Shown piece after piece: positions 7,309-59,305 of a stretch of DNA of 64,000 nt. A program made the translations under genes and the position numbers. The DNA is from Xestospongia bergquistia. Its lineage: Eukaryota; Porifera; Demospongiae; Haplosclerida; Petrosiidae. Positions within the stretch are counted from its first letter, which is position 1, and each line of letters starts with the position of its first letter. The stretch covers positions 3,509,501-3,573,500 of the forward strand of contig OZ014414.1 of the NCBI GenBank assembly GCA_963965975.1. Reading direction: 5' to 3'. The notes under the pieces are model-generated. The model searched no databases. It was not told where the DNA came from and saw only the letters and a program-made list of their open reading frames with translations.

Positions 7309-9822
7309 ATATGATATTATACTTGATAATAAAATAAAACAAACAAATATTTGAATAGAAATGGATGACAGACAACTTTTTACTCGAGAAGATGTTTTAC
7401 AACTTATATGTGAGGAAGAAGATGATGAGGGACCTCCAGAGATAATGTTTCCTGGTAGCGACGAGGAATTTGGTCTTTATGATGATGATGATGAGAATGA
7501 TGATGAACCTAGGAAATAAAAAGTGATTTATGAAACAAATATGTGACCTTATATAAACAGACATGATGATACAATTAACAAACACAAGTTAAAGACTTTG
7601 GATCTAGTGTTTCTACAATCCCACAAATATTACCACATATACCTGATGGGATAAATAACACATTGTAAGAAAAGAAACACATGTGAATTAATTTTTTTAA
7701 AACTTATTACCAGGATAACAACAACATCTGTGCAACAAAATTCACCTGTTCTGTAAGTGACCAAAAAAGTAATAATAATTACTTACTTGAAATACTTAGA
7801 ACTATATCACAAGAATCAGATGATATAACTAAACCTACTGATGACTCTCCTGAGTCAAGTCGACAAATTAGGTAATACTTAAACAAGTGTCACCTCTTTA
7901 TGAATGTTAACTATATCCACAGCTCTGAAAAAAAAGTGAAATGGTCTAACGATCTAAGACGAATTGAAGTTGATCCATTTACGGCACCAACTGGACAAAC
8001 TTTGACCCTCCCAACTTGTCCAATTACCACTTTTCTTCTCTTCTTTACCGAGTCTCTTTTTGAATTAATTGCAGTAGAAACAAACAGATATGCACAAACC
8101 TGTATGGGAGAGGAAGAGTACACAAAATGGACCAATGTGACAATTGACGAATTAAAGGCATACATTGGATTTAAAATACTCATGGGAATAATACGCTTAC
8201 CATCTCTGTACGACTATTGGAAAAAAGATCCTTACTATCATTATGGACCAATAGCAAATAGAATTTCTAGAGATAGATTTATGGAAATTGGAAGATATCT
8301 ACACTTTGTAGATAATTCAACATTAGCACCACCAGGATCAGATGAATATGACCGCCTTGGAAAAGTGAGACCAGTCTTGGAACAACTATCGAAACAATTC
8401 ACAGTTCTGTATAATCCAAGCAGAGACTGTAGTATTGATGAGGCAATGATACCTTTTAAGGGACGTAGTAGTATGAAGCAGTACGTACCCAAAAAACCGA
8501 TAAAACGAGGATTCAAGGTTTGGACAAGGGCAGATAGCAAAAATGGGTTTGTATCTGAGTTTCAAGTGTATGTTGGCAAAAAGAAAGAAGTTGAAAGAAG
8601 ACTAGGAGCAAGAGTGGTGAAAGATCTAACAAGATAGTTGGAAAAAATCATGTCTACTGTGACAATTTTTTTACAAGTATTCCACTATTCCAAGATCTAT
8701 TAGATGACAAAATCTATGCCTGTGGAACTATACGCTCTAACAGGGAATTTTTTCCACAGGATTTCAAGTCAGATTTAAAAAAGGGATTCAAAAATAGAGG
8801 AGAATACAAACTGCTACAAAGTGGAAATTTAGTCATTGCCCTGTGGCAAGACACAAAAGTTTTTACGGCTATATCTACAAATTCACAACCAAATGAAATA
8901 GTTGAAGTAAAAAGAAAGCAAAAAAATGGTGAGAGACAGCTTGTCCAATGCCCAGAACTTATAGCTAAGTATAATGAAAATATGGGTGGAGTTGATAAAA
9001 ATGATCAACTGCGACAATACTATAGTATTAGAGCTCGTGGACGGAAATGTTATAAGTACATTGCCTACTTTAGCATAGATTTAGCCATCACAAACTCTTA
9101 CATTTTTCATAGTCTTCTGTCTGAACCAACTTTTCGTAACTTGAAAGACTTTCGTCTCAATCTTGCAACTCAACTCATTGGCTTGTACAATAGTCGAAAA
9201 CATGCTGGTCGTCCTTCTATATTACCATCAAAAAAAATTTGCCAGAGTCATTTTCCAAAGAAACCAAATGATAAATGGTACCGATGTCATTACTGCTACA
9301 CCTATAAGAAGATAAGGAAAGATACTCAATGGTATTGTGAAGATTGTAGTATACACCTCTGTCACACTGGGAAGAGTGATGACTGTTTCATACTCTATCA
9401 TACTCAATATCTTTAGCTACATAGTACTCTTCAACAGTTAAGCAACCAGACAAATTACATATATAATCAATCTCTCTATTTATACTAAAATATATAAAGA
9501 AGCTATACCATACTTTATTGTTCCTATTACTTACTACTCAGGCAAAAAGTCAACTCAATATAAAGAAAAACACAAATGGTAGACAAATGTAGGTTGGACT
9601 TACGTGTACTCAACTATAATAACAGCGCTTGTTGTTACTCAATTGTACTGACATCCTTAGAGGTTAAAATGAGAGTTAGAAACTAGTTATAGCTTTATTT
9701 GAACACGTTAGAACATTTCTAAAGCGTCTTCTTGAAAAAAAGTGTGCTTTTGGCTTGAGGGAAAATTTATTTCGTCATCGCGTGATCCCGCCCACGCAAT
9801 TATTTCGTTAAAAAAGGGTTAA
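7309..9822 (+). mobile_element. piggyBac-type DNA transposon (left end in gap)
   Basis: The element contains a decayed piggyBac transposase and ends at the right with AAAAAAGGG directly followed by TTAA at 9819-9822, the family's target site and duplication. The inverted sequence therefore begins CCCTTTTTTAACG, as expected of a piggyBac terminus. The subterminal region 9740-9818 has several CpGs in an AT-rich setting. The left terminal repeat cannot be seen because of the gap. The element, or the block containing it, interrupts the ~140-bp satellite. Confidence 0.8.
7361..9416 (+). pseudogene. piggyBac transposase (DDE_Tnp_1_7 type), broken
   Basis: The N-terminal acidic region begins at ATG 7361 (MDDRQLFTREDVLQL) and soon reaches a stop at 7517; 7520-7899 is degenerate. 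The catalytic core is open from 7900 to 8637 and again, in a different frame, from about 8644 to 9416. One lesion at about 8635-8645 (TAG plus frame change) separates these two blocks. All expected acidic residues are present: Asp in CSIDEAMIPF (8437-8439), Asp in VYCDNFFTS (8661-8663), and Asp in MGGVDKNDQL (8994-8996, with a second at 9000). The C-terminal Cys-rich zinc-binding domain is complete (RCHYC, CEDC, LC, CFILYH). Family members cut and paste into TTAA. This copy could not make a full transposase unless the lesion is a sequencing error. Confidence 0.85.
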
Positions 9823-14436: not shown

Positions 14437-17170
14437 AGAAAGCCAATCAATCAGGTGGGTTCATACCTGCACCTGTGCAAGATCTAGTCATAATTGGACT
14501 ACGATTGTCAACTCTACCAGGGTTGTCCATTGGAGTATTTGAATCTCTCTCTCTTGAAGTCTTTTCATTTTGTATGGTTTTAGTAGCATCATGCAGCTTG
14601 ACTGTTAGATGACGATGATTTCTTCGAACTTGACCTGATGGTGTATTGACCACATAAGATATTGGTGTTTCAGCTTGATGGTTGATATTGCCAGGTATTT
14701 GTCTCATATGTGAAGTGACCCAGACAGGAGTGTCATCTGGTATTTCAGGTAGTGAACGAACTCTGTGTCGATGATCAAAATTTAGTTTCTGTTTGTTCTT
14801 TTCTCTCTCATTCTTCCATTTAAAATCGTTAAGATAGTGCCATGTTGGAATCAAAATCTCTTTAGTTTGAGGTAGCATTGTGCGAATTTGTCTTCCCATC
14901 AGGAGCTCAGCTGGACTATGTCCACACCATGGGAGAGGTGTTGCTCTATAGTTTAGGAGAGCCATATAATGGTCTTTATTGTTAGATAGAAGTGTCTTCA
15001 CTGTTTTAACCATGCGTTTAGCTTGACCATTGCTTTGTGGAAAATATGGACTTGAAATGATATGTTGAAATCCATAAGACATTGCAAAATCTTTCATTTC
15101 CTGTGAAATATATTGTGGACCATTGTCACTAATCAGAATTTCTGGAATGCCATAACGACTAAAAATAGACTTGAGAGCAGAGATGATAGCTTGAGAAGTT
15201 GTTGTGTTCAATCTTATAACTTCAGGGTATCTTGAAAAGTAATCAACTACTAAGAGGTAGGTAACTCCTTCCAAATCGAATAAATCTGAGCCAATCTTTG
15301 CCAAGGATGGTATGGTGATTTTGAAGTATTAGTGGCTATTTTGGAGGGGTGTTCTTCCTTCACGTTTTGGTACTGTTTGAACTATTTCTTTTGAGAGACC
15401 TGGCCACCAGACAGATGATGTTGCTCTAAAGCAACTTCTCTGAATTCCTTGATGACCCTCATGGATCTTGTCATGTGTTTCTTTCGTTAGGGATTCAGGT
15501 ACAACAATGCGTTTATTAAAAAGGAGTAGATTATTGCATACTGTTAACTCACTTCTAACAGTCCAATATGGTTTTAGAAAGCATTGAATCGCATGTTTCT
15601 CTGGCCAACTGGATTGACAATACTTGATAACTTGTGAGCAGAGTGAGTCATTCATTTGAGCTTGACGATAAACGTCCAGTTTCTCCTTACTAGCTGGTAG
15701 ACTTTCCACTTGAACCTTAACAAAATGCTCAATATCTTTTAGGTTATAATCCCCTAAAGAGGTAATAATAATAGTAGGATCACACGAGAAAGTATCTGCT
15801 GTATATATGTACTTCTGTGGTACATGGCTAATAGAGTAGTCATACCTCATTAGCTGTAGCCGAAACCTCAAAATTGGTGGTGTGAGGTTGTGTTGTTGTT
15901 TTGATATTAACAAGGGAACCAGAGGTTAATGGTCAGTTTCCAAGTGAAATCTTTTCCCAATGATGTAGTCTGAGAACTTTTTACATGCCCAAATAGCTGC
16001 TAGTGCTTCTTTTTCAATTTGAGCATATCTTCTTTCTGTTTCTGTCATTGTATGAGAGGCGTATACAATTGGTTTCCAATCCAGTCCACGTTTCTGTAAT
16101 AGTACAGCTCCTAGACCAAAGATGAGGCATCAGCTGATATCTTTGTATCTGAGGTTGGGTCAAATATGGCAAGTATGTAGGCTTTGAGAGTTTTTGTTTG
16201 ATTTTCTCAAAAGATTTCTCTTGATCAGGGCTCCATAGATAGGTGTTTTTCTTACTCAATAATTCTCTTAATGGTTGTGTTATTTCAGCTAGGTTAGGGG
16301 TAAACTTTGCCAGTTGGTTTACCATCCCCATGAAGCGATGTGATTCTAATACGTTGGTAGGTGCTTTCATGTCTATGACTGATTTCACTTTCTCTGGGTC
16401 AGCATGAACTCCATCCTTGTCAATAACATGACCTAGAAATTTTAGTTGATTCTGATGGAATTTGCACTTCTCTGAATTAAGAGTTATGCCAGCCTTTTCA
16501 ATTCTTTTAAGTGTAGCTTCCAGTTGAGCTTCATGTTCCTCCTCATTGCGAGCAAACACTAGAATGTCATCCATGAGAATGAAAACATCTTCTAATCCTT
16601 CCCAGATTTTGGCCATTCTTCTTTGAAAATGCTCAGGTGCACTGGTGATTCCAAATGGGAACTTGTTAAAATGGTAGTGTCCAAATGGAGTGATAAAAGT
16701 AGTGAGGGGTCTGGAAGTTTCAGTTAAGGGGATCTGCCAGAACCCACTATTAGTTGATGAAAAGTGTAGCTCCTGCGAGCTGAGCCAATGTCTCGTCCAC
16801 TCTGGGTAGAGGATATACTTCTCATAAAACACTTTCATTAAGTGGTTTCAAATCCACACATATTCTTATTGTACCATTTTTCTTTGGCACTACTACCATT
16901 CCTGCACACCATTGAGAAGGTTTATCAATTTGGAGATTACACCAAGTTCCTCCATTTGTCTCAGTCTCTCTTGAACTTTATCTCGAAGGGGAAGTGGTAT
17001 TCTTCGAGGAGTATAGAGAGCAAAGGCTGTAGCATCTGGCTTCAACTTAATTTAATATTCTTCTCCTAAATTGCCAAGTCCTTTGAATAAGTTAGGGGAT
17101 GTAGCATGAACCTTCGAGGTATAGTTATTCAGAGTTATGGAGTCAATCTTTGACACCAGACAAATGACTT
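14425..17170 (-). mobile_element. Ty3/gypsy retrotransposon relic, 5'-truncated (RT-RH-IN)
   Basis: Order on the minus strand is the normal gypsy order: reverse transcriptase, RNase H, integrase. RT fragments begin near 17060 (PLPLRDKVQERL), then GMVVVPKKNG, PFGITSAPEHFQ and the active site LMDDILVF (about 16570, usually F/YMDD or YVDD). RNase H is present only in shifted fragments near 16130-15900. The integrase has a zinc-finger remnant (15510-15390) and an open core at 15304-14447, with Asp in VVDYFSRYPE and in SDNGPQY, but the expected Glu is Lys in NGQAKRMVKT (15017-15019). Gag, protease, the 5' LTR and the primer site are missing. Several frameshifts and stops interrupt pol between 17060 and 15913. 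The element is dead. Confidence 0.8.
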
Positions 17171-20039: not shown

Positions 20040-20214
20040 CCGGAACTAGATTCAAATAAGTGACTAAATTTCGCTAAGACCATTGTCTCCCAGGAAATGA
20101 CGTCATGCTGATCATGTGATCTTACAATGCAAATGCAAAGAGATTGTACTTGTTTGTTCAGTTAATTCTCCAATTTGTATTGCTGTTGATCTGTCGTATT
20201 GTTGAAGCAATAAG
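20040..20214 (+). promoter_or_regulatory. Gene A promoter region and noncoding first exon
   Basis: A donor AATAAG|GTATGA at 20214/20215 closes a probable 5' UTR exon. The same exon end is recognisable in gene B (TGTCGTGTTGTTG ... GCAACAAG|GTACTA, donor after 58143), and the first bases of both introns are similar. Upstream, 20098-20105 is a palindromic CRE/ATF site TGACGTCA. The transcription start was not located. The paralogous conservation is the main support, since a noncoding exon cannot be seen from an open frame. Confidence 0.45.
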
Positions 20215-22842
20215 GTATGATCCTATTAATAATTTGTTTGTGTGTTCATGAGCCAGAGTTTGGAGTTACGCCCCCTGTTTATTTCATGACGGCGTATATG
20301 TAATTCCCGCCAAAACTAACACACTGTGTTAAAGTTAGTTTGTACATCTACCTTGTTGTTACTGATCTAAATAGAGTCTGAATTACATGTAAGCCTACTG
20401 TATTAAACTCGTTATTGTTAACCATTACATAGAGTTAATTAGGACTAAATTGTATCCTATTTTATATTATAGGATGAGATTATGCTCTGAAGGTCAAGCA
20501 TGACCTTTCTTGTCTCAAAATAAGATGTTTATTCATTTAAATATGAAAACTGTTGTTTTGTGACTTAAGTTGTTATTCAAACAATATTTTAGCAGAGCAA
20601 TCAGAAATCTTGAAATCTATTACATCATTATCCAAACAACTTATTGTTAATAGTGTAAATATTTAAAGTATGTATGACATGAAGAACTAAAATGTAGTTA
20701 TTTGAAAATAATGTTTGAAACTATCACAAGCATAAGTGAATAACTACTTGTATAATCTGGAGTAAACCTTTTTGATTAGATTTTGCCATCTAGCTTGTAT
20801 GTAATGTATCATGCCATAATATCAATGAATTTCACTAAAGTCAGCAGATGCACTTGCTTAGATTAAGCAAGTAGGCATCTGAGTAAGACACTGAATTCTA
20901 GCTCAATCAACATTAATATTTGTATAAATATCATAATTTTTTTCAAATTGGGTGGATCATTGATGTAACACTATATATATAAAAGATATAATATTCATTA
21001 ATTATCACATTATGTGAAATGTAATATAGTACATTTGAGGATACCACTTAGGGGTAGGGTATGTCATCAGATGTATTATATTTTTATGAATATGTTTACA
21101 TGTTTTGGTTGTTACATGTAGAGACCTATATACATTTGGTGTTTTGATTCGTTTCTAGGAACGCTCCTTTTAGATGAAATTATCACCTATCTCAAAAATT
21201 GTTAGACTGATCTGTGTATGTGTAATACATATTGTAGTTAGACTGCTAGTCAGTGTTATAAATCAATGATTTGCCAATTATTAATTGCCATGTCTTTAAA
21301 TCAATGAGCATGTCTATCAACAAAAATTAATAGCTATATAACTGTATGCCTTAATTTTTCATAGCACTCTCTACACACTATATTGTAATGTCCTTTAAAA
21401 ATATATCTATGAGCCTGATGTATATTTATGAAAAAATAGTTACCACTTGTAAATGGATGTTCTACAAACAGAAGGTTCAATGACCACTATACCACCTTGT
21501 ATGAATACCTCTATCAATAGCTGGATATTAAAGTAATATGAAAATTATAAAAAGAATATTCAAATTTAAAAATCACTAAGACCAGATTGTCTGGTCAATC
21601 AAGTCTGTTTCCTTGCTTAGCTATTTTTTCCCGTTCCACTTGCCTAAGTGTCTGTACCACTAACTCAGCTCATACATGCAGTTGTCATCTAGGGTTATCT
21701 GTTTTTCATAGTCTTGGAGACCCTTGTTCATTACTTGGGACAGCTTCATTTACAAGTGGCAATAACAGAGAGCAGGAGAATTATTCGAGTACTGGCAATC
21801 ATTTTTCCTAATTGATTGTGTTAACGTCCAGGCTGAAATCAAACCTGTTTCTAATCTCCAGGACTTCGTATTGATACTCTTCATCTTGTCTGATGAAGCC
21901 TTATCTCCACTGTTACATTGTTGACCACAAAACCTAAGAAGTCCATACTCTCTCCAGTATGGATTCATTCTTATTAGTTATGAAATCTAGGCTCTTAAAG
22001 AGGTAGCACATATTATCTGCTTTATCAATTAATAGCTTGTATGATTTGGCCATGCTATCAATCATATCCCAATCTCTTTTAACAAAGCTATGGCTTGCTT
22101 GAGAGTCTTTATAAAGGCTTATGGAGCCTTTGAGAGACCAAAGGGAATGCCATTGAACTGGTATGAACAGCGTTGGAATTAGAATAGGATAAAATTGTCT
22201 GTGGGATCCGGAGCTGACTATGAACATTCAATCACTGATATTGTAGGGAAGGGGCTGGGCAACAACAGGTGTTACATTTGTTTAGCTTATAGCTTAATCA
22301 GGTCACTGATTTCTATGGTTTGATGTTGCTTGTTTCAGATAAAAAGAGAGTCAGACAAACTGTTTCTGTTCAGTAGTATGTCATTACTGGTTACAGAAGC
22401 ATATAAATGTCCACATAAATCTTATAAATTATGCACTCATCATGATCAATAAATTACAATTTGATATATAGTATATGGGTGTGGCATGTATAGTTTGCAT
22501 GCCACATCCACATTGTATGTTATAATATACACATTTTAGACTCAATGTCTATATTATACACAGTGTTTCCCACAGAATGTTTTTGTACTTAAATAATTAA
22601 AAGTACCCAAGGCTTAATGCATACAAGCAATAAAAATAGACATGATTTGTGGGTGTGATGAATAAGTTACAAGTTGAGTCCTATGCCATGCACTTACTAG
22701 AAGTCATTGTACATTTCTATATCTATAGATGACTATTTCCGTCATACAAAAATACAATTGATGATGTGTATCATATTCCATATTTCATTGTAATTGATGT
22801 AATAAAAACTTTGATTTTAAAATATATGTTGTCTTATTATAG
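20215..22842 (+). other. Gene A intron 1
   Basis: Inferred intron between the noncoding exon and the 2A exon. It contains the decayed reverse-transcriptase relic at 21600-22240 and a short palindrome at 22470-22503 (GTGTGGCATG ... CATGCCACAT). Its last ~150 bases are similar to the sequence before the 2A relic at 51489, so the exon was duplicated with flanking intron. Confidence 0.45.
21600..22240 (-). pseudogene. Reverse-transcriptase relic, DIRS-like
   Basis: In the minus-strand sense, 22165-22060 reads FNGIPFGLSKAP-stop-AFIKTLKQAIALL, matching the PFGLSxAPRxFTK block of tyrosine-recombinase (DIRS-type) retrotransposon RTs. Sequence downstream (22060-21600) is full of stops and frame changes. 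Assignment to DIRS rests on this one block, so another RT class is possible. Confidence 0.45.
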
Positions 22843-22844
22843 TA

Positions 22845-23070
22845 ATGATTGATATATCTCATTGGAGAGTGTGTATTGGATTGTGGGCATGTCATCAGAT
22901 ATCATACTGTACTTGTGCTAAAAAGACTCCAAGCACTGAGACTAGTATTTGGATAAATGGAGTAACCATCATCAGGAAGAATAAAGATCTTACTTTCTCT
23001 TTAGGAGTCTTACTCTCACTTCTTCTTATTTTATCAGGAGATGTTGAACTCAATCCTGGACCTAAAGCGG
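22845..23070 (+). CDS. Gene A exon 2: hydrophobic leader ending in a 2A peptide
   Basis: The exon starts two bases after a TTATTATAG acceptor (exon start 22843) with ATG 22845 and ends at GCGG|GTAAGC, phase 1, giving 75 codons. Residues 1-50 hold several Cys and a short basic patch (IIRKNKD). Residues 51-64 are strongly hydrophobic (FSLGVLLSLLLIL). They lead straight into SGDVELNPGP, with the 2A motif at 23037-23063. D-V/I-E-x-N-P-G-P is the invariant 2A core: ribosomes skip the Gly-Pro bond, releasing the leader and restarting at Pro. In sea urchin NLR proteins such leaders act as alternative signal sequences (established). Here the released product would begin PKAD and continue into the Death domains. 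The gene B exon has the same length and nearly the same sequence. A long AT microsatellite directly follows in the intron, so the longer open frame seen there is not real. Confidence 0.85.
23037..23063 (+). other. 2A ribosome-skipping motif, gene A
   Basis: Encodes GDVELNPGP, a perfect match to the 2A consensus, preceded by LLLILS. The predicted non-formed bond lies between the last Gly and Pro. Codons are GGA GAT GTT GAA CTC AAT CCT GGA CCT, identical base for base in gene B at 59272-59298. Confidence 0.9.
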
Positions 23071-23103
23071 GTAAGCTATTAAAAAATATTGCCTATGTTG
23101 TTA

Positions 23104-23169
<66 letters not shown>

Positions 23170-25035
23170 TTGTACATATCTACTAGTCACTTATCATGAG
23201 TTCCATTGCCTTTATTACATTTGGAGATGTTAACCACAAATATAGCACTAACTTGAACAGACAAGTGTTGAATACAACAAAGTTGCAAAGGTTCAATAAC
23301 TCCTAAGAGAAATTATCTTGGCAGAGTATCAGGTAGAAAGAAGTATGTTCAAAAATAGTTACCTTGGGATTATTTTGGAAGTGTTTTCAAGCTCTTTTCT
23401 GAATCAGATATGATAAAATACACTATTTGCATTCTGTTGTTTTAAGTGCTATCAAAACAACTGTGGTTAAAAGTTAGCTTTGGGAAATATCCTGATTTAT
23501 TTTTAAATTTAATTCGAACTGAACACTAGATCTTCTGATATCACCTTACAATGTTGTCAAGTCATAGTACCAAACATCATTTTATCACGTTGCCTTCTTT
23601 TTTATGGTTTCCACGCTAATATAAGTAGAATTAATATGAATACAAACTTTCTTATTGATATTTACAAACCAAGGTGATCATAAATAAATGCATAAACAAT
23701 GTCAAAACATTATGCAAATTATTGTAGTGTCTAGAGTTGTCATCGACTGACCCACTTCGTAAAATAACATGACGTCATCCTCATCTCAAATGATAACTCT
23801 TGCATCTTCTTTACTAACATCACACTCAAACATCTGTTTTTTTTTCAAGGCGGAGACAATGATACAAGCTTAATTTGTGACTTCCATAAACTTAGCCAGA
23901 CTAATAGCATGTGCTTATACGCATGATAGCAAAATTTGTAATAACTAATAATAATTATATAACTATATTATATAACTAACTTTTATACCAACTAGCCAAA
24001 CAGACAGACCAACTAACCAAAGCACAAAAAACAACTAGCATTTTGGATGCAACTAGCCTTAATTTTAAAAGCTTTTTCTTTTGGAATTTTCTGTACATTA
24101 TAGTATGTGAATGCATTTACAGTAGTGTGTTTTCAATGTGTCCAATAGCTGATTAAAACCAGTTTTGTTGAGCGCACAGGCTTAATTAATGTTTTTATGA
24201 GTTGATATATGGTCAGGCCTCAAATGGTTAATAGAATTTTTTTTCTTGTCCTTATTTATTATATCATTACCTAAAAGTAGTAACTCAGATGTGCTCTTAA
24301 TACAATGTATGGTTAAACTTATGAGTTGCCATCTCTTGTAACTACATTTCACCTTGTCACAAAATATGTAGTATAGTAACTGATTTAATTCAACGACTAC
24401 ATAAATAAAAAAACAAAAACAACAAAAACTGAGGAAACAGACCTAAACAGCTATTACATTTACATGATATTTTGTGAGTTCACACCACCATATGCAATTA
24501 ATAAAGGTCAACGTTCGCACAAATTATTGTAAGCAATTACTATGAAGTTCTTTGCCCTGGCTCTATACTGTCTGTTGATACGATGTGATAATCATTGCCA
24601 GGGAATTCATTGAATGATAAACAGTACCATTAACCTACTATTAATTTTCTTAATTTGTACTAATTTAATAATTGCTAAAATTTCAGCATGCTAAACTTTA
24701 GTTCATATGTGACTTAGAAAATCACTAAAAGTAATACATGTAAAGTTCAAATGTTTTAAATTTTTTACATTTAATATATTCTATTAAAATTAGGCTATAT
24801 GTAAATGTTAGTAACAGTTGAAGAATAGTAGTACATGTAGATGTCCTAGGTAATTTTGTAAATATAATTACCATTTTATATTTCAACTTTCTGTATTAAA
24901 TTACATGTACATTTATTGATAATTAAGGTTTTCATCTAAATCAATATCACATACATTTAAAATGATATTTTTTAGAACATTATTTAATTTATAATATGAC
25001 AATTTGTTATAATTATTATTTTGTCATTATTTCAG
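23071..25035 (+). other. Gene A intron 2
   Basis: AT-rich intron. It has a second CRE-like palindrome TGACGTCA at 23770-23777. Its last ~250 bases (24780-25035) are clearly similar to the intron ends before the gene B Death exons (60000-60261 and 61400-61651), showing that the Death exon was duplicated together with upstream intron. No coding sequence is seen otherwise. Confidence 0.5.
23108..23165. repeat. (AT)n microsatellite in gene A intron 2
   Basis: Nearly pure alternating AT of about 56 bases, 38 bases after the 2A exon donor. Confidence 0.95.
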
Positions 25036-25326
25036 ATATTACCAATATATTAAAGGCGACTCCTGATGAAGATCAACTATTTGATCTATTGTATAATATT
25101 AGAGACAAATGGAATGAGATTGGACTTGCATTACATGTACATCATAATATTTTGGCTGACTTAAAACACTTAAACTATAGTGACACTTTCAGACTTTTGA
25201 ATGTCATTAACATATGTATCACTCAACCATCTCCTATTACCTGGGAGATGGTAATAACTGCAATGGAGAATCCTATTGTTAACAACAAAGAAAAATCTGA
25301 TCTGATATGTCACTATCTTAGTGCTG
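25036..25326 (+). CDS. Gene A exon 3: Death domain 1
   Basis: A phase 1/1 exon of 97 codons between TTATTTCAG and GCTG|GTAAG. The translation has the Death-fold signature: LLYNIRDKWNEIGLALHV, DLKHLNYSDTFRLLNVI, then ITWEMVITAMENPIV and a final helix ending SDLICHYLSA. The W-x2-I/L-G pattern after helix 1, the spacing to the ITW motif and the length of about 85 residues fit Death domains of apoptosis adaptors and NLR/ROCO receptors. It should mediate homotypic assembly. One complete domain per symmetric exon allows clean duplication by exon shuffling. Confidence 0.85.
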
Positions 25327-25683
25327 GTAAGAACAATAAGTTATTATTGCATTTGAAATAAAATTAATAACAATCCACTTTTCGCATTAAGTATTAGCCT
25401 ATGACAGACTTTACCATTGATTCCAATTACTTAGTACATGTACAAGTATTAGTTACCATCTAGTGTATCTAGCTGTAACTTATACCTAGATGATGTGTTA
25501 CAAATTTCTAATGAGATCTCATCAGAATTTCAGTTAACTGTGATAAGCAAAAATAAAGAATCTACAACCTCCACCGGAGCATACTAGTTTCACTCACGAT
25601 GTATTTTGTCCATGTTTGATGATTTGCAGATTTCATTTATGTTGTGACAGTTTGTTATAATAATTATTTTGTTATTATCTTAG

Positions 25684-25962
25684 ATATTACCAGTATATTA
25701 AAGGAGACTCCTGACGAAGATGAACTAGTCTGTCAATTACTAGGCATTGAAGACAAGTGGTATAGGATTGGAAAATCATTACAATTGGATTGCAATGATT
25801 TAGATCATATAAAACACAGTCAAGATGATAACATAGCCAAACTCAGGAAAGTCTTAAAGATCTCATTACATGTCACCTGGGAGAAAGTTATAACTGCTAT
25901 TAAGGGTCCTATTGTTAAAAATGAGAAGAAAGCTATGGAGATATGTCATCATCTTAAATTAG
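25684..25962 (+). CDS. Gene A exon 4: Death domain 2
   Basis: A 93-codon phase 1/1 exon after ATTATCTTAG, with donor TTAG|GTAAGC. It is a paralogue of exon 3: it begins DITSILKETPDEDELV, continues EDKWYRIGKSLQLDCNDL, and has HVTWEKVITAIKGPIV. It is four codons shorter, mainly in the loop before HVTWE. Function is inferred as for exon 3. The two domains could act as a paired oligomerisation module. Confidence 0.85.
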
Positions 25963-26878
25963 GTAAGCAATTATTATTAATTATTGAGTTTGTTTTATTA
26001 ATACTGCCACTGTTAGTAAAGTATATAGCACAAATTTTAATATAGAAAATTTGATGGTATATTATAATTTTGTATATTTTTAATATGCAAAATTTTATTG
26101 TTCGTTTTCAAAGAGTTTAATACTATACTTCAATAAATATTTCTATTTATCACAACATACATTAGTATGTAGTACTATTTTGGGTATGTTTATGTTGCAA
26201 CATGTAGCATATACACAATGGAACTAACTTATTTGAATTGACAATATGCTTCTTATCTGTTTACCTCAGATATAATTAAATTGATTTTATGATGAACTTA
26301 AAATACATATAATAAAGAATATTATTTAATGGAATATTATTTAATGGTAGATTATTTAATGGAATAGAAAATAAGGACAGATATAAGGAATTACAGATAA
26401 TAAAATATAGTTATTAGCAAAAGAGAAATTAGTTTTTTGTGAGTCAACCTGAATGAGACCAATAACACACCAATTACAACTATACTCTAATTTACGTTTG
26501 TGCCTCTTTTGATAACTCATGTACTGATACTAAATATGCATACATATATTGACATCAAACATCATGACTTATACTGTTTACAAATAGGTACATGTATTTA
26601 TTGTATTAGATAAAGTATCAAAACTTTAGTGTATGAGATATACAATATACACTAGAGGAGAGGTTTCTTGTTTATACAAACTTGTCTTCATTTGTGTTAT
26701 ACTAACATCTTGGTCATACTGATCCCTCCTTCATACATGTTTTGTTACTCATATATAATAGTTATGTAATACAAGGTGAATTACTGTATTAGTGTTTAGT
26801 TAGTATGTCCAAATTAGGTCATTATTAATCAATTCATAATTATTATTGATATTACCTATAATTTGTTTGTTCATGTAG

Positions 26879-26935
26879 TTACAATTAGGAGACTTCAATA
26901 TAATCCTAGTCCCGACACTGAAATATCAAATTCAG
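26879..26935 (+). CDS. Gene A exon 5: linker exon
   Basis: A 19-codon phase 1/1 exon (TVTIRRLQYNPSPDTEISNS in context) between TTCATGTAG and TTCAG|GTACAT. The gene B counterpart at 63338-63400 shares R-x-R/L-x-YNP and TEIS-x-S, so the exon is real despite its size. It links the Death domains to the GTPase module; no domain is recognised. Confidence 0.65.
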
Positions 26936-27059
26936 GTACATTTATTTTATTATTATATATCAATATGCTATGTTCACTGTAGAGTGGACATTTACTGTAG
27001 TGTTATTATAGATGGACAGTTTTCTTTTACTTGTTTTGTTCTTTAGTTTCAAAAGAGAG

Positions 27060-27620
27060 TGATATTCAGTATTGTCACATCTTTAGTGTTTTAGTAAGGA
27101 ATAAGTTTAGTTTAGTATTAGTGAAGGCTTATAAATTACATTTTAGTTTTAGTATGTAACCAGAAAAGTAATTTTAGTTAGTATTAGTTTAGTTTTTCAA
27201 TTTGATTTTTATTTTATTTTAGTTTAGTTTTAGTAAGGAGTTGACAAAGCAATTTTAGTTAGTATTAGTTTAGTAGCTTCATATAATTTTCATTTTAGTT
27301 AATATTAGTTTACTTGATTCACTTAATTTTGCAATCATTAATTTTCAAGAAAGGCAATCAAATAATGACAGGTCAAAGGTACACATATTTTCTGTTTTTT
27401 TTAAGGAAGGACTTCACATTCTAAGTTGTGGTTTGTCAGCTATTAATATTAAAAAAATGTTAATAGAATAACATAATGTCAGCTTTAATTTTAGTATTAT
27501 TTTAGTTTTTGGCAGCTAAAATTTTAGCTTTAGTTTAGTTTTAGTTGTCTGGAAATGTTATCTTTTTAGTTTAGTTTTAGTTGGTCATGAAAGAAGTTTT
27601 TTAGTTTAGTTTTAGTTTAC
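27060..27620. repeat. Low-complexity TTTTAGTTTAG-rich intron stretch
   Basis: Degenerate repetition of TTAGTTT/TTTTAG words throughout the stretch, within intron 5 of gene A. The words resemble 3' splice sites but there is no coding sequence between them. Confidence 0.7.
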
Positions 27621-27639
27621 TAAAACAACACTACACATC

Positions 27640-28150
27640 TTGTCATTTGTATTAACTAGCATCCTACATATCCTAGGACACTGATACTAAGTAGTTCCTA
27701 AGAGTGGACAATTTTGAACATTGGTTATCCTTGAGTTTTGTATTGGTTGTTTCCATATTGACTATAGTACATACTAGAATGATTAGTTCATAATTCCAGT
27801 GCATATGAATTCCTAAATATCACTAGTTGCATAGTACATCCTGGGATGGTGAGGTTAGGAGTCCAGACTATGTATTACTTAATACTGAATGATACTTGGT
27901 ACATATTACATCCTGGTTTGGTCCAATCAGGGGTTCACTTTCACTTTGGAGCTCAGTGCATATGTATCCTTAGTACTATGTTCTTGATACATGGTATATC
28001 CTGGGATGGTCAGTAGTAATCCAATGCATAGATATATCTCCGTTACTAAATATTGATACTTATTACATTCTGGGATGGTTAATTTAGGGTGTCATTTTTA
28101 GGCCAGTGCATATATGTCCCTTAATACTAAGTATTTCTGCATATGGATTC
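27640..28150. repeat. Degenerate ~75-100-bp intron repeat
   Basis: Repeating block with landmarks ACATCCTGGGATGGT, CCAGTGCATAT and TTAATACTAAGTA, about five copies. A homologous series occupies 63600-64000 in the same intron of gene B, so the repeat predates the gene duplication. Confidence 0.65.
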
Positions 28151-28308
28151 TCATCTTTGTCACTAGAGAAAAGTATAGTGTATGAGTAACTCTACGGGAC
28201 TACTTTGTAGTTGTAATATTGTTTTTGTCACTAGTAGAAAAGAACAGTATCATGTTATTTTATGAAGCATTGATTGATATGATGAACCTACCATATTTTA
28301 TTTGTTAG

Positions 28309-30285
28309 ATGAATTACTTGACAAAGCTATGAAGGAGGGTTATGTTGTTGCTAGATGGACCAGGTTCTCAGTATCAGGTGCTCCTGGAACTGGTAAATCG
28401 TCCTTTCTAAGGTTGTTATATAATGAAGATCCACCAGTTCATCACGATAGTACATCAGTAGTTGTCCCTCAAGAAGCAAGACGAATAAGCATTTCACGAG
28501 CCATCATTGATGATGATACCACTTGGACAAAAATAAATTATGAAAACATAAAAGAAATGATTGCTCAAGGAATTAAAGATGGGGTCAGACCTTCTAAAAG
28601 GTTTAAACTTCAAACAATAAATGAGGAATCAGACGAGGTAATGAAAAACGCAGATGGTGATGATTCTAAGCCAATAACTACAACTGCAAAAATAAGTCAA
28701 GAGATTGTTAGCCTCTTACCTCATGTAGAGAAATCTGAACTGCTTTATAAATCTCATTGGATATATGGTGTTGATACTGGTGGTCAGGCTGCTTTTTTAG
28801 ATATTGCTCCAGCATTGTTACGGTATAATTCAGTCAATATTTTTACACACAAACTAACTGAGAGGCTTGGTGACAAAGCTAAGTTCTTTTTTAGTGTCAA
28901 AGGAAGGCCAATTGGAGAACCAGATGAAAAGCAAATGACAAATCTACAACTTCTTGAAGCTTCAGTTTGTTCACTATCGTTGGCAGATTCTCCGGTATTG
29001 CCAAACATCCATGTCAAGCTTGTTCAAGGAACCTCATGTCTAATATTAGGGACATTCTTGGATAAAATGCTGGAGTCCAGTGAGTCTTTAAATAAGAAAA
29101 ATGAGCTTCTTTGGTCACATTTAAACAAATTTAGTAAAATTATCATCAAAACTCGTCCGGCTGGTGAAGAAGTGATTTTTTCTGTTAACAATACTGCTAG
29201 AGGTCCTAGTGAGCTTAATATGGCAAGAAAGATTCGTGATAAAATATGCCAGTGTTATATTGAAGCAGAAATTCCTATTCGTTGGTTTTTATTGCAGCTA
29301 GAGCTAGAACAACTTCACAAGTCATCTAAATCAGGTATAGTAACTAAATCAAAATGTTTCGAGATTGGCCAAAGCTTGCGAATAGATGTTAAAGAGATTG
29401 AAGCAGCATTAATGTACTACCATGATCTCACAATCTTCTTGTACTTCCCTCAAATCTTACCTGATGTAGTGTTCCTTCATCCACAGCCACTTCTTGATAA
29501 GTTATCTAATTTGATCAGTATCTCCATTGATAATGCTGTGAATCATTTAGATGATGAAGGTATTTCTCTTCCTCTTGGAACATATGAAGAACTAAAATAT
29601 GAGGGTACATTTAAAGAAGACTTGTTGACATCACCCAATTCACATTTATCACAAGGATTCTCTCCTGAGTTTAAACCAAAAGATTTTTTCAAGTTAATGA
29701 CAAGTTTATATATAATGGCCGCATTACCTGAGAAAGGAAAATACTTTCTACCAACTGTCCTTCCTATTAAACCGTCCACTGAATATAAATCTATACCATC
29801 TCCTTTTAAAGAACACGTAGATCCTTTAATTTTGTCATGGGATATGAAGCCTCTTCCTCGAGGTGTATTCCCTGCTTTAGTTGTAAACCTTTTACATCGT
29901 AAAAATCAGCCGAGATTTCAACTTAAACGCCCTCTACGTTCCACACAACGTTATCGTAATATCATCACTTTACAAACTAATTATGGTGATGTTCTTTTAG
30001 TTGATGGAATTTATTGGATAGCAATATATTATTCTGGCTTTCCTACAGAATGCTGCATTTTACGAGATATTATCTACACAGGAATCAATGAAGTGACATG
30101 TAAATTCCAATATATGGCTAATGTGAAAAGTGTCAATGAATATTTTTACTGTACAATACCTGATTGCCCTAAAAAAGCTTCAGAACATTTTTGTCGTTTA
30201 AGTGATGACAAACTAAAGTGTATTTGTCAAGATAGCTCTCAAACAACTGACACTGATGAGACACGTCAACTACCTTGGTTTAGAG
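28309..30285 (+). CDS. Gene A exon 6: ROC-like GTPase plus COR region
   Basis: A single 659-codon exon, phase 1/1, from TTTGTTAG|ATGAATT to AGAG|GTGAGT. Exon residues 24-31 are a P-loop GAPGTGKS. Residues 156-160 are DTGGQ, the switch-II/G3 signature of ROC and other Ras-like domains. Residues 247-253 (LGTFLDK) occupy the place of a degenerate G4. The COR-like part follows: IPIRWFL (322-328), YHDLTIFLYFPQ (371-382), VVFLHPQPLLDKL (387-399). The C-terminal 60 residues are Cys-rich (CTIPDC, CRLSDDKLKCIC). ROCO proteins are dimer-regulated GTPases in signalling and cell death. Together with two N-terminal Death domains this gives a Death-ROCO protein without LRR or kinase. A NACHT/NLR reading is less likely because DTGGQ and the COR blocks are diagnostic of ROCO-type GTPases. 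The upstream TTG at 28302 is intronic and not a start. Confidence 0.85.
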
Positions 30286-30896
30286 GTGAGTTTTAGACTT
30301 AAAAACTACTTAAATTTCATTAAGCTAGTTATATTTGATGTGTAACTGTTGTCATATAATTTCTAAATTGACCATATTAGCCTTAACACCTGTACAATCT
30401 TGAGCATATTGTATAATATAATTGATGTTGAATGAGAAGATTCCTATAGTTTTATTTACCATATTTGTAGAGCTTAGATAATTGATTAGATTTTTCACTT
30501 GTACATGATCTGGGTGGCAATGACAAATCAATAACTTTGATTTAAGAAGCAGTAAAAATGGAATAACAAAAAGTTTTTTTTTAATGTTAGTACACATTCT
30601 TAGAATTACATTTTTCAATTGCCTTGGATTATCAAATTGATCTATACATATCATGAAAAAGCAAGTCATTCTAACTTAATTTTGGCATAATTGTTACTTT
30701 CATATGACATTTAGTATACCATATTGACATTGTAGGACAATGAAAAATCAAGTCAAAGATTCTCTGCTTGATGTTTTAATAATAGCTTTGCATTATTATA
30801 TCAGTACTAAGTCATTACCATTTATTTGTTTGTATTGCATTATATAAATAATATTATACTTTTTATCTTTTAATATTATCCTTATTTATTTTGTAG
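30286..30896 (+). other. Gene A intron 6
   Basis: AT-rich intron; no coding or repeat feature recognised. Confidence 0.5.
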
Positions 30897-30932
30897 CTTC
30901 TTATCCTAGTAGGCAAGATTCTGCATCAGTTG
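30897..30932 (+). CDS. Gene A exon 7, 12 codons
   Basis: Micro-exon ASYPSRQDSASV between TTTTGTAG and GTTG|GTATGT, phase 1/1. It is paralogous in position and style to exon 9 (32436-32492): both precede a basic NLS-like exon and end S-V or P-V before the identical donor GTTG|GTATGT. Confidence 0.6.
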
Positions 30933-32150
30933 GTATGTAAATGAACACTTCTACTTTATCTACCTGTAGTGTAATGTATCCTATATAAAGCACGTTTGTA
31001 TTATTCCATCCACTATCCTAATATTGTAGTACATTAATGGTTAATATTATCATCACCTTATGAAGTCAGGAATAACATTAAAAAAGCTTGTTGCTTTGCT
31101 TATATAATTGCTTAGAAAGTAGAAAAAAGAAAACTAGACTCAGCTGTAGTTATTATCAGACATAATATATGATAGTAATAGCATGTGCTATATATCTATC
31201 AATGTCTACTTAATTGCAATATATCAAATTTTTAACAACTAAATAAAATATGATATTCAATGCTTAACATCTCCTGGCATTCATACCTTGTTGTAATACT
31301 ATGGTATGTACATGAGTTTGTACATTATGTATAGCTTCCTATCCTTATGATATCAACACACAAGCTCCACCTTTATTGTTTTGGAACCAATCAATTTAGA
31401 GCCTGCTGTAAACATTATCAATCCAAATGTGCAAACTCTCATTGTCATTCATGACCCTAATTTATCTGATTCAGTAAACTATGTCTATAAAATAGCTTGT
31501 TTAGTCTTAGTCCATATATATCACTGATAACAGTACATTAGGTGAACTTTTAATGTTTATTTCATATATTTTTTGTAATTATTGGAAACAAATCCAAGTT
31601 AACTGTTTGTATGTCTAAAATGTAATATTGCTACTTCAAATTTCATCCCTGATCTTCAAGCTCCTCCCTTTTTCTGGACATGTAGAACATGTGACATTTT
31701 CATATTTTACTTCAAATCTCAGTTATAACAATGATATAAGCACTTACTTTTCATTGCCATTAAGACAACTAATCTATATATATCCAATAGCTATTTTTTA
31801 GAGAATAATAGCACATGGATTGTCAAAAGGAATACCTAGAAAATACCAATTACTTTATGAATACTACCAAAATAACCACAAGAATGTAAATAATCCAATA
31901 ACATCAAAGTTAGCTCAATATCAAGAAATATAGCACAAGACTTGTGCCACAAGTTAATGATTAGAAATAAATGTGAAAATTCAAAGCTAAACACAGTTTC
32001 TATGTACTTTTTATTGGCCTGATCATTGTAACAATGTTAACAATGTTTCAAGTACAATTTAAAAAAAAAAATTAGAATATTGATATTTCTATTAACGAAT
32101 TAATGTCATCCATTTGGAATTTAATTTGTCTTGTTGTTCTTTTTATATAG
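30933..32150 (+). other. Gene A intron 7
   Basis: AT-rich intron with no recognised feature apart from short A- and T-runs. Confidence 0.45.
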
Positions 32151-32216
32151 GTCATAAACGACCCAACAGCATGGAGGAAATGCCATTATCAAAAAAGAAA
32201 TCTACTACTTCCTTAA
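32151..32216 (+). CDS. Gene A exon 8: bipartite-NLS-like exon 1
   Basis: A 22-codon phase 1/1 exon encoding GHKRPNSMEEMPLSKKK followed by STTSL. KR, ten residues, KKK is the classical bipartite nuclear localisation pattern. Sites are TTTATATAG and CTTAA|GTTAGT. Nuclear import is predicted from the motif only. Confidence 0.6.
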   Translation, partial: VINDPTAWRKCHYQKRNLLLP

Positions 32217-32435
32217 GTTAGTAATTGATTTAATTGTATTGCACTTGATTTGAAAAGGATTGGATCCCTTTCATAGCAAAGCTAATTTCAAATGTTAGTA
32301 CATGTGGCTCTCATATACATAGCTGCAAAACTTAGTTCTAAGTATGATATTTTGACAGTATGATGTCATTATAGCTATTCGTTCTGTTTAATTTTTGTCT
32401 TCTATTATTATCTACATTTTCCTTTTATTCTACAG

Positions 32436-32492
32436 CTACAACACTTTCACCTCATGATTTTTATGATACTAGTCAAGATCTTAAACCAGTTG
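32436..32492 (+). CDS. Gene A exon 9, 19 codons
   Basis: Encodes TLSPHDFYDTSQDLKPV, phase 1/1, between TTCTACAG and GTTG|GTATGT. Counterpart of exon 7 in an internal duplication of exon pairs (7+8 and 9+10). Confidence 0.6.
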
Positions 32493-32708
32493 GTATGTTA
32501 ATAATAATTAAGTATAGTCACATTTTCTGGTCTTACCTAAAAACAGAATTACAACATTTGAAAAACTATGCATAAGTCTAAATGTCTTATAGAGAAATTC
32601 ACTATTGTTTTATTAAATCACCTTTACACAAACACTGCAGTATTACAAAAAAATTTGCAGGAGTTATCCACCTACAAAGTACATTATCATATTACCCTAT
32701 TTGTGTAG

Positions 32709-32786
32709 GTTATGTACCACGGAAACGACCTAATCAATTCCCAGAGGAAGCAGCACCATCAAAAAGGGAGTGTACTACTCTCTCAA
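32709..32786 (+). CDS. Gene A exon 10: bipartite-NLS-like exon 2
   Basis: A 26-codon phase 1/1 exon with RKRPNQFPEEAAPSKRE and then TTLS. It is recognisably the same module as exon 8 (KRPN, acidic pair, P-S-K-K/R, TT-L), with KR-x11-KR spacing. Acceptor TTTGTGTAG, donor CTCAA|GTAATT. Confidence 0.6.
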
Positions 32787-33980
32787 GTAATTAAATTTAA
32801 TTATACTAGACCAAAATTTCCAAATTAAGACTAAGAAATATTTTTTCATGTCAAAGCCAAGCTAAACAGTAGTGTATGTAACATTTACTGTGCATATGTT
32901 ATTGAAATGTAATGGTATCATAAAAACTTTAAGGTGTCATAGCTAATAATTATAGTCAATAATCTGTTAACATTAGACAATGATATTGCACACTCCACAT
33001 TTGTTTATGACTATTATCTGTCCATCGTGAGAATAACCAGTAACTCAGTCTTCTATAGCTCATGCTATAGAAATAATTTATAGAGAAATAATTTGCACCA
33101 TTCAAATAGCCTTCAAGTTCATAAATGTTATCTATAAAATTGAACATTAGCTATTTAATGAAGACACAACCTTGAAATATATAATTACATATATGTTATT
33201 AATAACACACTTAGCCTTTCATTCTCACATTACATTATGCAAAATTCACATTCAGTAGCGATTGCAAAATTCAACCAACCGTTCTCTACTTTACCAGAGA
33301 AGTTCAGAACTGTCAAAAATATCATCAATTGTTAAAGAAGGATATATATTAAGAAGACACAACACCAAAACATGAGAAGATTCACTATGATACACAACTT
33401 ACACATACAAAAACATTTGTAACTATGACACCATGCCCAAACTAGGTTGATTACATTGATTTATATTGATGTTCCAATAAACTGCAGTTATTCTAGGAAA
33501 AAGTATAGGTTAACCACTAATATTATTAAAGTCTTTCTCAGTGAAAACTGTGTTGTTACTAAGTACTGTTGTAAATTCTAAGCTATATCTAAGAAAAGTT
33601 ATGTCATCAATAATCAATATGATATTGTTCATTTACAATATTTACAGTGTAATAGGTCAACCTGAATGACCCCAATTTTTGGTCCTAAATCATCTGATGA
33701 AGTTTGCTATCATATAGTGAACAATATCCATAAAAGAGAATTTATTATTAGAGGCATAATTAACACTTTCATGTCTGAAACAATCTTCAGAGTCAAATCA
33801 AGTCATAACAAAGTGTATTGGCATTGGTAGTGAATGATAGTGACTACCCATAAAGTTTAGACTACAGCCATAGCATTTTCAGTTGTTCATATTTCTAGTA
33901 GTATTCTGTGCTGCATATATTTAGTTCTTACTATACTGATATTTTTCTGTTGATAAAGAGTTTTTCATCACTATCTATAG

Positions 33981-34082
33981 AAGAAAATAAGCCAGCACAT
34001 GACAGTGTGACACAGAGTGGTCAGCAAAACCTGTCTGGAGCTGCTGTTGAAAGCAGTGGAGTGATTCAACAGGGTGAAAAAA
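33981..34082 (+). CDS. Gene A exon 11: Gln/Ser-rich tail
   Basis: A 34-codon phase 1/1 exon, polar and without a recognised domain (ENKPAHDSVTQSGQQNL, then SGVIQQGEK). Acceptor ATCTATAG, donor AAAA|GTATGT. The longer open frame around it runs through intron sequence and was not used. Confidence 0.6.
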
Positions 34083-34251
34083 GTATGTCTTATACTATTT
34101 TGTGTGCCTACTACACCTCAAATCTTGTGTAGTCCTAAGATAGTTTTGAGCCAAATGTTTACTAATAATTGTCCATTCATTTTACATCATTTTACTAGAT
34201 ACCATAATAATTTTGTCAGGTAATATAGACTTTTATTGCTGTATTGTATAG

Positions 34252-34280
34252 GATACATACCATCTTTAGACTATTACTAA
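34252..34280 (+). CDS. Gene A exon 12: terminal exon
   Basis: After TGTATTGTATAG the phase-1 frame reads YIPSLDYY and stops at TAA 34278-34280. Phase agrees with exon 11 and the stop comes within nine codons, so this is a plausible last exon. It brings gene A to about 1,065 aa including the 2A leader. A different distal exon cannot be excluded. Confidence 0.45.
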
Positions 34281-39030: not shown

Positions 39031-40070
39031 CATGACCAAGGTATTCCATTGTAACTTGCTTAAACAATGGTACCCTAGGACAGAAACAAGTTACACTAGT
39101 ATTGTGGAGGATAGCACTGAGTTGATAAGTCCTGAATGGCAAGAAGGGGAGCCATGAATAGGAGATCAACTAACAGGAAAGAAAAACAAGAATTAGAGAA
39201 ACTCCTACAACAATATAAGCAAGTTATTGATCCGAAGCCTGGACATGCTAAAAGAACTGTGCATAAGATCGTGACAGATGGAAGTGGTTCAATACGTCAA
39301 GGACCTTATCAGATACCTCCAGCCCTGAAGAAAGATCTCTGTGATGAACTGCAAACCATGCTCAAGGATGGATTAATTGAGGAGTCAAGCAGTGAATGGT
39401 CATCACCAATTGTTGTGGTTAAGAAGAAGGATGGCAGTAATAGAATTTGTGTAGATTACAGGAAATTGAATGCAATTACTAAATTTGATGCCTACCCTAT
39501 GCCAAGAATAGATGACAAGTTAGATGCCATAGGGAATGCAAAATATATATCTACTCTCGATCTAGCGAAAGGGTATTGGCAGATACCAATGGACCAACAG
39601 GATTGTGAGAAGACTGCGTTCAGCAGCCATTTAGGATTATTTCAGTTCACCGTGATGCCTTTTGGACTAAGTGGGGCACCAGTGTCTTTTCAACGAGTGA
39701 TGGACCAAACCTTAAGAGGACTTAATGACTTTGTTGGTGTGTATCTAGATGACATTGTAATTCATAGCTCAACTTGGAAAGAATATCTAGTTCACTATCA
39801 GCAAGTATTGGAAAGACTACAAGACACTGGATTAACTCTGAAACTAAAGAAGTGCGAATTCGGAGCAGCAGAATGCACTTATCTTGGACATTGCATTGGT
39901 CAAGGAGGTGTCAGACCTGAACAGAACAAAGTCATGGCCATTAAACTAGTAAAGAGACCAACAACGAAGAAGGAAGTTCGAGCATTCTGGGGAATGATTG
40001 GTTAATACAGGAGATTCATAAGGGATTTTGCCCATATAGCTGAGCCACTAACTAACCTTACAAAGAAAGG
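39031..40070 (+). pseudogene. Reverse transcriptase of the Gmr1-like element
   Basis: Open for 289 codons from 39136. RT blocks in order: IVVVKKKDGSNRICVDYRKL, TLDLAKGYWQIPM, MPFGLSGAPVSFQ, the catalytic YLDDIVIHS (YLDD at 39742-39753), LKLKKCEFG and YLGHCIGQGG. A TAA at 40003-40005 falls where the conserved G-Y-Y-R-R-F segment is expected, and the frame continues after it. Sequence style is Ty3/gypsy. Confidence 0.85.
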
Positions 40071-51488: not shown

Positions 51489-51626
51489 ATGATTGATATC
51501 TTGCAATGGAGATTAAGTATTAGATTGTGGGCATGTCATCAGATATCTTGCAGTAGTCACACTAAAGAATCTTCAAATATTGAGAGCAGTAGTTGGATAG
51601 ATTTAGTAACTATAATCAAAACCTAA
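51489..51626 (+). pseudogene. Relic of a third 2A leader exon, 2A deleted
   Basis: Acceptor TCATTATAG, the following TAATGATTGATAT and the upstream ~130 bp of intron match the 2A exons of genes A and B. The frame reads MIDILQWRLSIRLWACHQIS and onward to VTIIK, then jumps from ATCA straight to ACCTAAAACAAGTAAC. The latter corresponds to the codons just after 2A plus the donor of gene B. About 85 bases encoding the basic turn, the hydrophobic segment and most of GDVELNPG are missing, and the frame stops at TAA 51624-51626. No Death or GTPase exon follows within 12 kb before gene B. Confidence 0.8.
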
Positions 51627-51629
51627 AAC

Positions 51630-59079: not shown

Positions 59080-59305
59080 ATGATTGATATATCTCAATGG
59101 AGGGCGAGTATTGGACTGTGGACATGTCGTCAGATATCATATAGTACTCATTCTAAAGAGACTTCAAACATTGAGAGCAGTAGTACGATAGATGGAGTGA
59201 CTATTATCAGGAAGATTAAATATCTTACTTTATTATTAGGGATTTTTCTCTCACTTCTTCTTATTTTATCAGGAGATGTTGAACTCAATCCTGGACCTAA
59301 AACAG
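59080..59305 (+). CDS. Gene B exon 2: hydrophobic leader ending in a 2A peptide
   Basis: Acceptor CATTATAG, ATG 59080, donor ACAG|GTAACC, phase 1, 75 codons: the same length and layout as gene A exon 2. Hydrophobic LTLLLGIFLSLLLIL leads into SGDVELNPGPK (2A at 59272-59298). Substitutions relative to gene A lie mostly in residues 8-50, while the last 20 codons are almost unchanged. This suggests constraint on the hydrophobic-2A end. Expected product: a short leader plus a protein starting PKTG. Confidence 0.85.
59272..59298 (+). other. 2A ribosome-skipping motif, gene B
   Basis: Encodes GDVELNPGP, identical in DNA sequence to the gene A motif at 23037-23063. Confidence 0.9.

Follow-up and report, generated by a model that had tools for sequence, protein, structure and literature searches.

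What might a 2A ribosome-skipping motif do at the front of a putative sponge cell-death gene? The window analysed here, a stretch of 64,000 nucleotides from Xestospongia bergquistia (contig OZ014414.1, forward-strand positions 3,509,501 to 3,573,500; C4:3509501-3573500 in the contig numbering used below), contains a hydrophobic leader exon that ends in a 2A/StopGo core and precedes two Death-like exons and a large ROC-COR exon. Judged from the sequence of the assembly (146.5 Mb, 21 contigs), to which all genome-wide counts refer, the leader is a 5' module shared among immune-type genes and is not special to ROCO genes; the new content is one leader module spread across unrelated immune and cell-death families. 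For the window gene, a dual-targeting switch has slightly better than even prospects: the 2A leader on a Death-Death-ROC-COR protein would give a cytosolic bulk and a leader-bearing rest.

The leader exon and the gene behind it

The leader is built as follows (window positions).

22845..23070, + strand: coding part of the 2A leader exon, with a polar N-terminus, HWRVCIGLWAC (a block of the QWRxxIGLWxC type), RKNKD, a hydrophobic stretch at residues 49-63, and GDVELNPGPKA
23037..23063, + strand: GDVELNPGP 2A/StopGo core, predicted to break at NPG/P
23071..23072, + strand: GT splice donor in phase 1, read from the sequence

The first in-frame ATG of the leader open reading frame (ORF) lies at 22845, and the encoded peptide is MIDISHWRVCIGLWACHQISYCTCAKKTPSTETSIWINGVTIIRKNKDLTFSLGVLLSLLLILSGDVELNPGPKA; a gene start at 20040, put forward in a sequence-only reading of this DNA, is not supported. 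The exon ending in GDVELNPGP described in that reading is indeed encoded, with the core at 23037-23063 following the hydrophobic stretch. The leader measures 73 residues to the end of NPGP, the core occupying residues 65-73 with one in-frame methionine before it, and the hydrophobic stretch (mean hydropathy 2.6) ends nine residues before the predicted break, flanked by positive charges before (RKNKD) and negative charges after (DVE). The hexapeptide LLILSG in front of the core resembles, by eye, the LLLLSG-like class of PMC12846837 (papers given by PMC number are cited from excerpts). Core and upstream context thus both correspond to a 2A/StopGo element, for which skipping activity is predicted. 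The pattern GDVELNPGP occurs at 56 sites in the genome, against 0 for the reversed pattern; the looser D(V/I)ExNPGP occurs at 161, some of them of another kind, again against 0 reversed.

The remainder of the gene follows downstream.

25036..25326, + strand: Death-like exon 1, with AG acceptor and GT donor, phase 1 on both sides
25684..25962, + strand: Death-like exon 2, with AG acceptor and GT donor, phase 1 on both sides; weak Pfam Death match
26879..26935, + strand: 57-nt linker exon, phase 1 on both sides, limits set by eye; within the paralogue-conserved block 26779-27009
28309..30285, + strand: ROC-COR exon of 1977 nt, with P-loop GAPGTGKS at 28377, DTGGQ at 28773, and COR; GT donor at 30286
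30897..30932, + strand: 36-nt candidate exon after ROC-COR, phase 1, by eye; block 30897-31077 conserved with L025
32709..32794, + strand: candidate last exon with phase-1 acceptor and in-frame TAA stop, by eye and not proven
33981..34084, + strand: alternative possible late exon, by eye

The blocks that paralogues share cover the Death exons, positions 26779-27009 and the ROC-COR exon. The 3' end, earlier placed at 34280, remains at the level of the candidate exons 32709-32794 and 33981-34084; no kinase or leucine-rich repeat (LRR) exon was noted in the window gene.

A phase-1 GT follows the core in 36 distinct leaders, at the same base in 35 of them and one codon earlier in the other, and a matching phase-1 AG acceptor opens the Death-A exon in 19 of 22 cases (exceptions L002, L003 and L032). 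Because donors and acceptors match in phase, and because conservation among leader homologues ends at the donor, splicing of the leader to the Death exons is likely. The matching-phase splice claimed from the sequence alone is therefore compatible with the sites, although a joined transcript was not seen.

In the large exon, the P-loop and DTGGQ expected from the same reading are present, and their core residues are invariant or almost so in an alignment of 43 sequences. The G4 (N/T)KxD region is represented only by a GTFxDK-like segment, assigned by eye, in which G247, T248 and D251 are invariant across the same sequences. Sequence searches gave no Roc or COR identity: Pfam returned neither for the window ROC-COR protein at E up to 1, NCBIfam gave no match to the large exon, and a sequence search of the Protein Data Bank (PDB) was likewise empty; relatives carry PF16095. 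The identity was settled by the predicted structure of the exon, which clearly matches LRRK2 and Chlorobium RocCOR, so that the model clearly places a Roc GTPase fold before COR. A Death fold is possible for the Death-like exons, whose structure prediction resembles Death domains to a moderate degree.

One leader before several families

A genome search with the 75-residue leader gave 148 rows, or 147 copies after split rows were merged (150 of 175 candidates scored). These were cross-matched with Death-A exons (150 of 751 candidates scored), Death-B exons (100 matches, 140 scored; the query came from leader gene L031 itself), caspase (99), NACHT (95), ROC-COR (66 exons after merging of 70 rows, 66 of 625 candidates scored) and COR-A (eight rows of 146, picked by eye near leaders). 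The families found behind leaders are the six families searched, and other targets are possible.

For 118 of the 147 leaders, an exon of a searched family follows on the same strand before the next leader, no more than 10 kb away. The first such exon belongs to Death-B (74 leaders), Death-A (30), NACHT (10), caspase (2), ROC (1) or COR (1). The total of 118 is unchanged without the COR-A rows, since every leader near a COR-A row also had a Death exon; a rerun without COR-A agrees. A NACHT exon occurs behind 45 of the assigned leaders, a ROC-COR exon of the window's kind behind 7, and a caspase exon behind 3. The earlier proposal of a 2A device tied to a ROCO GTPase describes a combination that is present but is too narrow, with ROC-COR in 7 of 118 and a Death-type exon next in 104.

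The arrangement is strongly directional. With COR-A left aside, a searched exon follows 105 of the 147 leaders on their own strand at a distance of up to 1 kb, 1 leader has such an exon upstream on that strand, and 0 have one on the opposite strand; at up to 10 kb the figures are 118 downstream, 1 opposite and 49 upstream, the last explained by tandem arrays. Random places on the same contigs have such an exon within 10 kb for a mean of 3.9 of 147, with a maximum of 7 in 50 draws. Counted from the exons, a leader lies within 500 bp upstream of 71 of 100 Death-B exons (opposite strand 0), within 3 kb upstream of 36 of 150 Death-A exons (opposite strand 0) and within 6 kb upstream of 45 of 95 NACHT matches (opposite strand 1), and within 12 kb of 3 of 99 caspase exons. 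Contigs differ: NACHT matches have a leader within 5 kb in 9/9 cases on C11, 19/22 on C10, 3/3 on C14, 8/14 on C1 and 6/10 on C4, against 0/29 on C2 and 0/8 on C3, C7, C13 and C15 together. The 29 leaderless matches on C2 cluster at 8.83-9.15 Mb, in contrast to C10, C11 and C14.

Reading of individual loci gives the same variety. Leader-Death-Death-ROC-COR order is found in the window and at L012, L016, L019, L023 and L025; leader-Death-NACHT at L020, L027, L032 and L035; leader-caspase, in some cases with a ROC-like exon, at L017, L022, L026 and L030. At L018 the leader is followed by a ROC-COR exon with no Death exon between, and L031 is the only leader-Death-ankyrin locus read (Ank_2, E 2e-191). 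A further member of the family lies in the window itself.

59080..59304, + strand: second 2A leader exon, same family, with Death exons at 60264-60548 and 61654-61932; its ROC-COR exon lies outside the window at C4:3574399

The cross-match left 29 of 147 leaders without a partner, two of them decayed (window 51489 and C4:3757094). Inspection of unmatched loci led from L026 to a caspase-like exon, from L029 to a Death exon and from L014 to a Death exon 5.8 kb on. In the decayed copy at window 51489-51660, the N-terminal 44 codons match and the 2A core is gone. A caspase-ROCO family without a leader in the cross-match consists of caspase exon arrays upstream of ROC-COR at C11:6.37-6.47 Mb and C12:5.39-5.54 Mb, with a caspase-to-ROC-COR gap of 86 bases at C11:6445512/6445426.

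Conservation and divergence of the leader

Among 101 homologues in the protein collection, selected by similarity to the window leader, 92 keep D(V/I)ExNPGP. The remaining nine comprise one that stops at NPG, two in which the core opens with N or G, and six with other changes; variants opening with N or G are reported functional (PMC12846837). Conservation is concentrated at the two ends: the N-terminal positions M, I, Q, W, R, I, G, L, W and C reach 0.90-1.00 and the 2A core 0.87-0.99, the middle is variable, and conservation drops at the phase-1 donor. The conserved block at leader residues 1-16 reads MIDISQWRxxIGLWxC, and no relative or known function was found for it.

This pattern brings in a different account, in which the released leader peptide is itself the point. 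Skipping would be near-complete, and a 72-residue membrane-prone second product would be co-expressed with each immune protein. An N-terminal block as conserved as the 2A core, above a variable middle, speaks for it, since an ordinary signal sequence could do without one. The block nevertheless lacks a known function or relative, the homologues were picked by likeness to the window leader, and the long polar N-terminus could instead serve the ribosome tunnel or splicing, leaving this account possible but rather unlikely.

Ratios of nonsynonymous to synonymous differences (pN/pS) are similar along the 5' part of the genes, the median being 0.64 both in the leader (33 comparisons) and in the Death exons (29 and 31), and 0.46 in ROC-COR (5). 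Since leader and Death values lie near 0.64, protein constraint is modest overall. The last 24 leader residues give 0.62 (11 comparisons, 0.19 to 1.79), which alone is no proof of purifying selection on the 2A core. In eight leader-ROC genes, median pS rises from 0.20 in the leader to 0.38 in the first Death exon and 0.49 in ROC-COR, and 26 of the 28 gene pairs, which are non-independent, show a lower pS for the leader than for ROC. Similarity of the window leader ends on the 3' side no more than about 30 bases past the exon in 14 of 15 loci, extending further at L025, and on the 5' side 19 bases before the ATG in the sole comparison, with L010; sequence more than about 40 bases upstream of the leader was available for L001-L010 and the window. 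The low leader divergence would fit exon exchange, gene conversion or nucleotide-level constraint.

A leader exon without function, left by 2A non-long-terminal-repeat (non-LTR) retrotransposons and happening to precede Death genes, would account for the decayed leaders at window 51489 and C4:3757094 and is in keeping with a leader pN/pS of only about 0.64. The genome also has 2A sites, L037 and L039, that run in frame into a PHD-like Cys/His pattern, which we take to resemble 2A retrotransposons. However, core, donor and N-terminus are conserved in many leader copies, and up to 1 kb downstream of a leader a searched exon lies on the same strand in 105 of 147 cases and on the opposite strand in 0. 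The four other 2A sites inspected (L037-L040) have no leader N-terminus, so a leader origin from such sites is not shown. A mere relic is, in sum, very improbable. The leader family also differs from sites of the L037/L039 type in having a splice donor directly after the core, then Death exons.

A putative translational switch

In the dual-targeting reading, the spliced mRNA would be translated up to NPG/P, where most ribosomes would release the 72-residue leader peptide and continue, giving a free cytosolic Death-Death-ROC-COR protein with proline as its first residue. The remaining ribosomes would form the bond, retaining the hydrophobic segment N-terminally and directing the protein to the endoplasmic reticulum (ER) membrane or the secretory route. 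The decision to skip would precede signal recognition: the hydrophobic stretch ends nine residues before the break and would therefore still lie in the ribosome tunnel. Once the ROC-COR switch is triggered, the Death domains may assemble a signalling complex. ER translocation of some upstream proteins can inhibit 2A (PMC2978324), so that targeting and skipping may influence one another.

Several observations weigh against this reading. A Death-A exon is joined to the leader in 0 of 95 NPGP-bearing leader homologues, although only short proteins were searched (73-122 residues found); as the search was limited to proteins of similar length, long spliced forms could not show. The tails of these 95 look like intron read-through, with glycine as third residue in 92. 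Among the 120 ROC-COR homologues listed, of 282, none matches the leader or Death-A. Of the 66 ROC-COR exons scored, 8 have a leader in the 12 kb upstream and 58 lack one, so the leader is not required for ROCO genes, and for NACHT matches within 12 kb on the same strand a leader lies upstream in 47 of 95 but also downstream in 31 of 95, as in tandem arrays. Pfam Death gives E 0.1 for Death-like exon 2 (13.1 bits, cut-off 22.6) and no match for exon 1; exons of other leader genes reach E 0.00097-0.013, also below cut-off. Foldseek with the Death prediction returned nothing at E <= 0.001, and the Death alignment, run as a profile against the PDB, gave two fimbrial and two FADD chains (E 0.0038-0.92), which were not used. 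The conserved leader N-terminus has no explanation in dual targeting and suggests a role for the leader peptide or a membrane-tethered form. Finally, positive charges before and negative charges after the segment predict an N-in/C-out orientation, which would place the GTPase in the lumen, an odd place for it.

The last point would be relieved if the leader-bearing minority were anchored on the cytosolic face instead of being secreted, making the choice one between a soluble and a membrane-tethered receptor. GTP and the partners of ROC-COR and Death domains are located in the cytosol, and such anchoring leaves both parts there. Transmembrane NLR architectures are reported in sponges (PMC12909245). 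The same charge pattern, RKNKD before the segment and DVE after it, nevertheless disfavours a cytosolic-face anchor, which is considered unlikely.

The dual-targeting switch has its nearest known case in the sea urchin Strongylocentrotus purpuratus, where Roulston et al. 2016 (PMC4981915) count an N-terminal 2A in 85 of 241 NLRs, or in 14 of 87 database entries. One such NLR sequence served as skip site and signal together: recoding in vitro amounted to about 80%, and of the wild-type mCherry product about 15% was in the medium (PMC4981915). In both animals a 2A core ends a hydrophobic N-terminal leader on innate immune proteins with Death-type domains in many genomic copies, and the excerpts of that paper support the analogy drawn from the sequence alone; the window gene looks built to work in the same way. 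The sea-urchin leader, by contrast, has 26 residues and sits on NACHT-LRR proteins, whereas the sponge leader has 73 residues, a conserved polar N-terminus and its own exon, and fronts ROC-COR, caspase and one ankyrin gene read besides NACHT. Given its longer leader and its ROC-COR in place of NACHT-LRR, the window gene is not filed under the sea-urchin type. The tested sea-urchin leader also bears on the idea that the 2A acts as a brake, many ribosomes terminating without restart so that Death, NACHT and caspase proteins are kept low. The families behind leaders are those in which a low dose would help, though only such families were searched, and the roughly 80% recoding with clear downstream product in the sea urchin (PMC4981915) makes a brake improbable.

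Other known systems share parts of the arrangement. An L-rich stretch with D(V/I)ExNPGP is common to 2A non-LTR retrotransposons (as cited in PMC12846837 and PMC4981915). The Roc-COR tandem, P-loop and DTGGQ are those of ROCO proteins (LRRK1/2, DAPK1, MASL1 and prokaryotic Roco), to which the window gene adds two N-terminal Death-like exons and the 2A leader. Large Death-protein sets with varied C-terminal parts are likewise described in the Death-like/TRADD-N expansions of Amphimedon (PMC8195603) and in sponge NLR repertoires (PMC12909245); 2A leaders go unmentioned in the excerpts of both, and NPGP is absent from the main text of the latter. Exon shuffling and a suggested role in immunity are features of brown-algal ROCO genes regarded as candidate receptors, for which the excerpt names no 2A leader (PMC11378527). 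No literature on 2A leaders in sponges appeared among the matches listed, which are part of all matches, and priority is uncertain.

The surroundings are animal-like, with a TEAD YAP-binding domain in the window (ORF at 56448-57143; Pfam YBD, E 2e-69) and many Death, NACHT and caspase exons in the genome; the sponge Amphimedon is reported to have a repertoire rich in Death domains (PMC8195603). Pieces of a DDE_Tnp_1_7 transposase, in two overlapping frames, and retroelement pieces (reverse transcriptase/integrase) lie at window 7876-9413, 14447-16844 and 39136-40002.

As this exon precedes NACHT, caspase and ROCO genes and at least one ankyrin gene, a single translational element could decide the partition across much of the defence repertoire. 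More broadly, and with somewhat less than even prospects, the leader may be a portable translational switch, its copies recruited and kept alike before the unrelated NACHT, ROC-COR, caspase and Death-ankyrin families, and setting soluble versus membrane-bound forms of more than 100 proteins. StopGo is said to be rare in cellular genes (PMC12846837); this genome would put it to large-scale natural use, with well over 100 2A leaders in front of death-type, NACHT, caspase and ROCO genes. The arrangement opens a test of whether the location of an immune receptor is set by translation instead of by separate genes, and may be relevant to the transmembrane domains described for sponge NLRs. If true, then together with the sea urchins it would make 2A leaders a recurrent solution for animal innate immune receptors.

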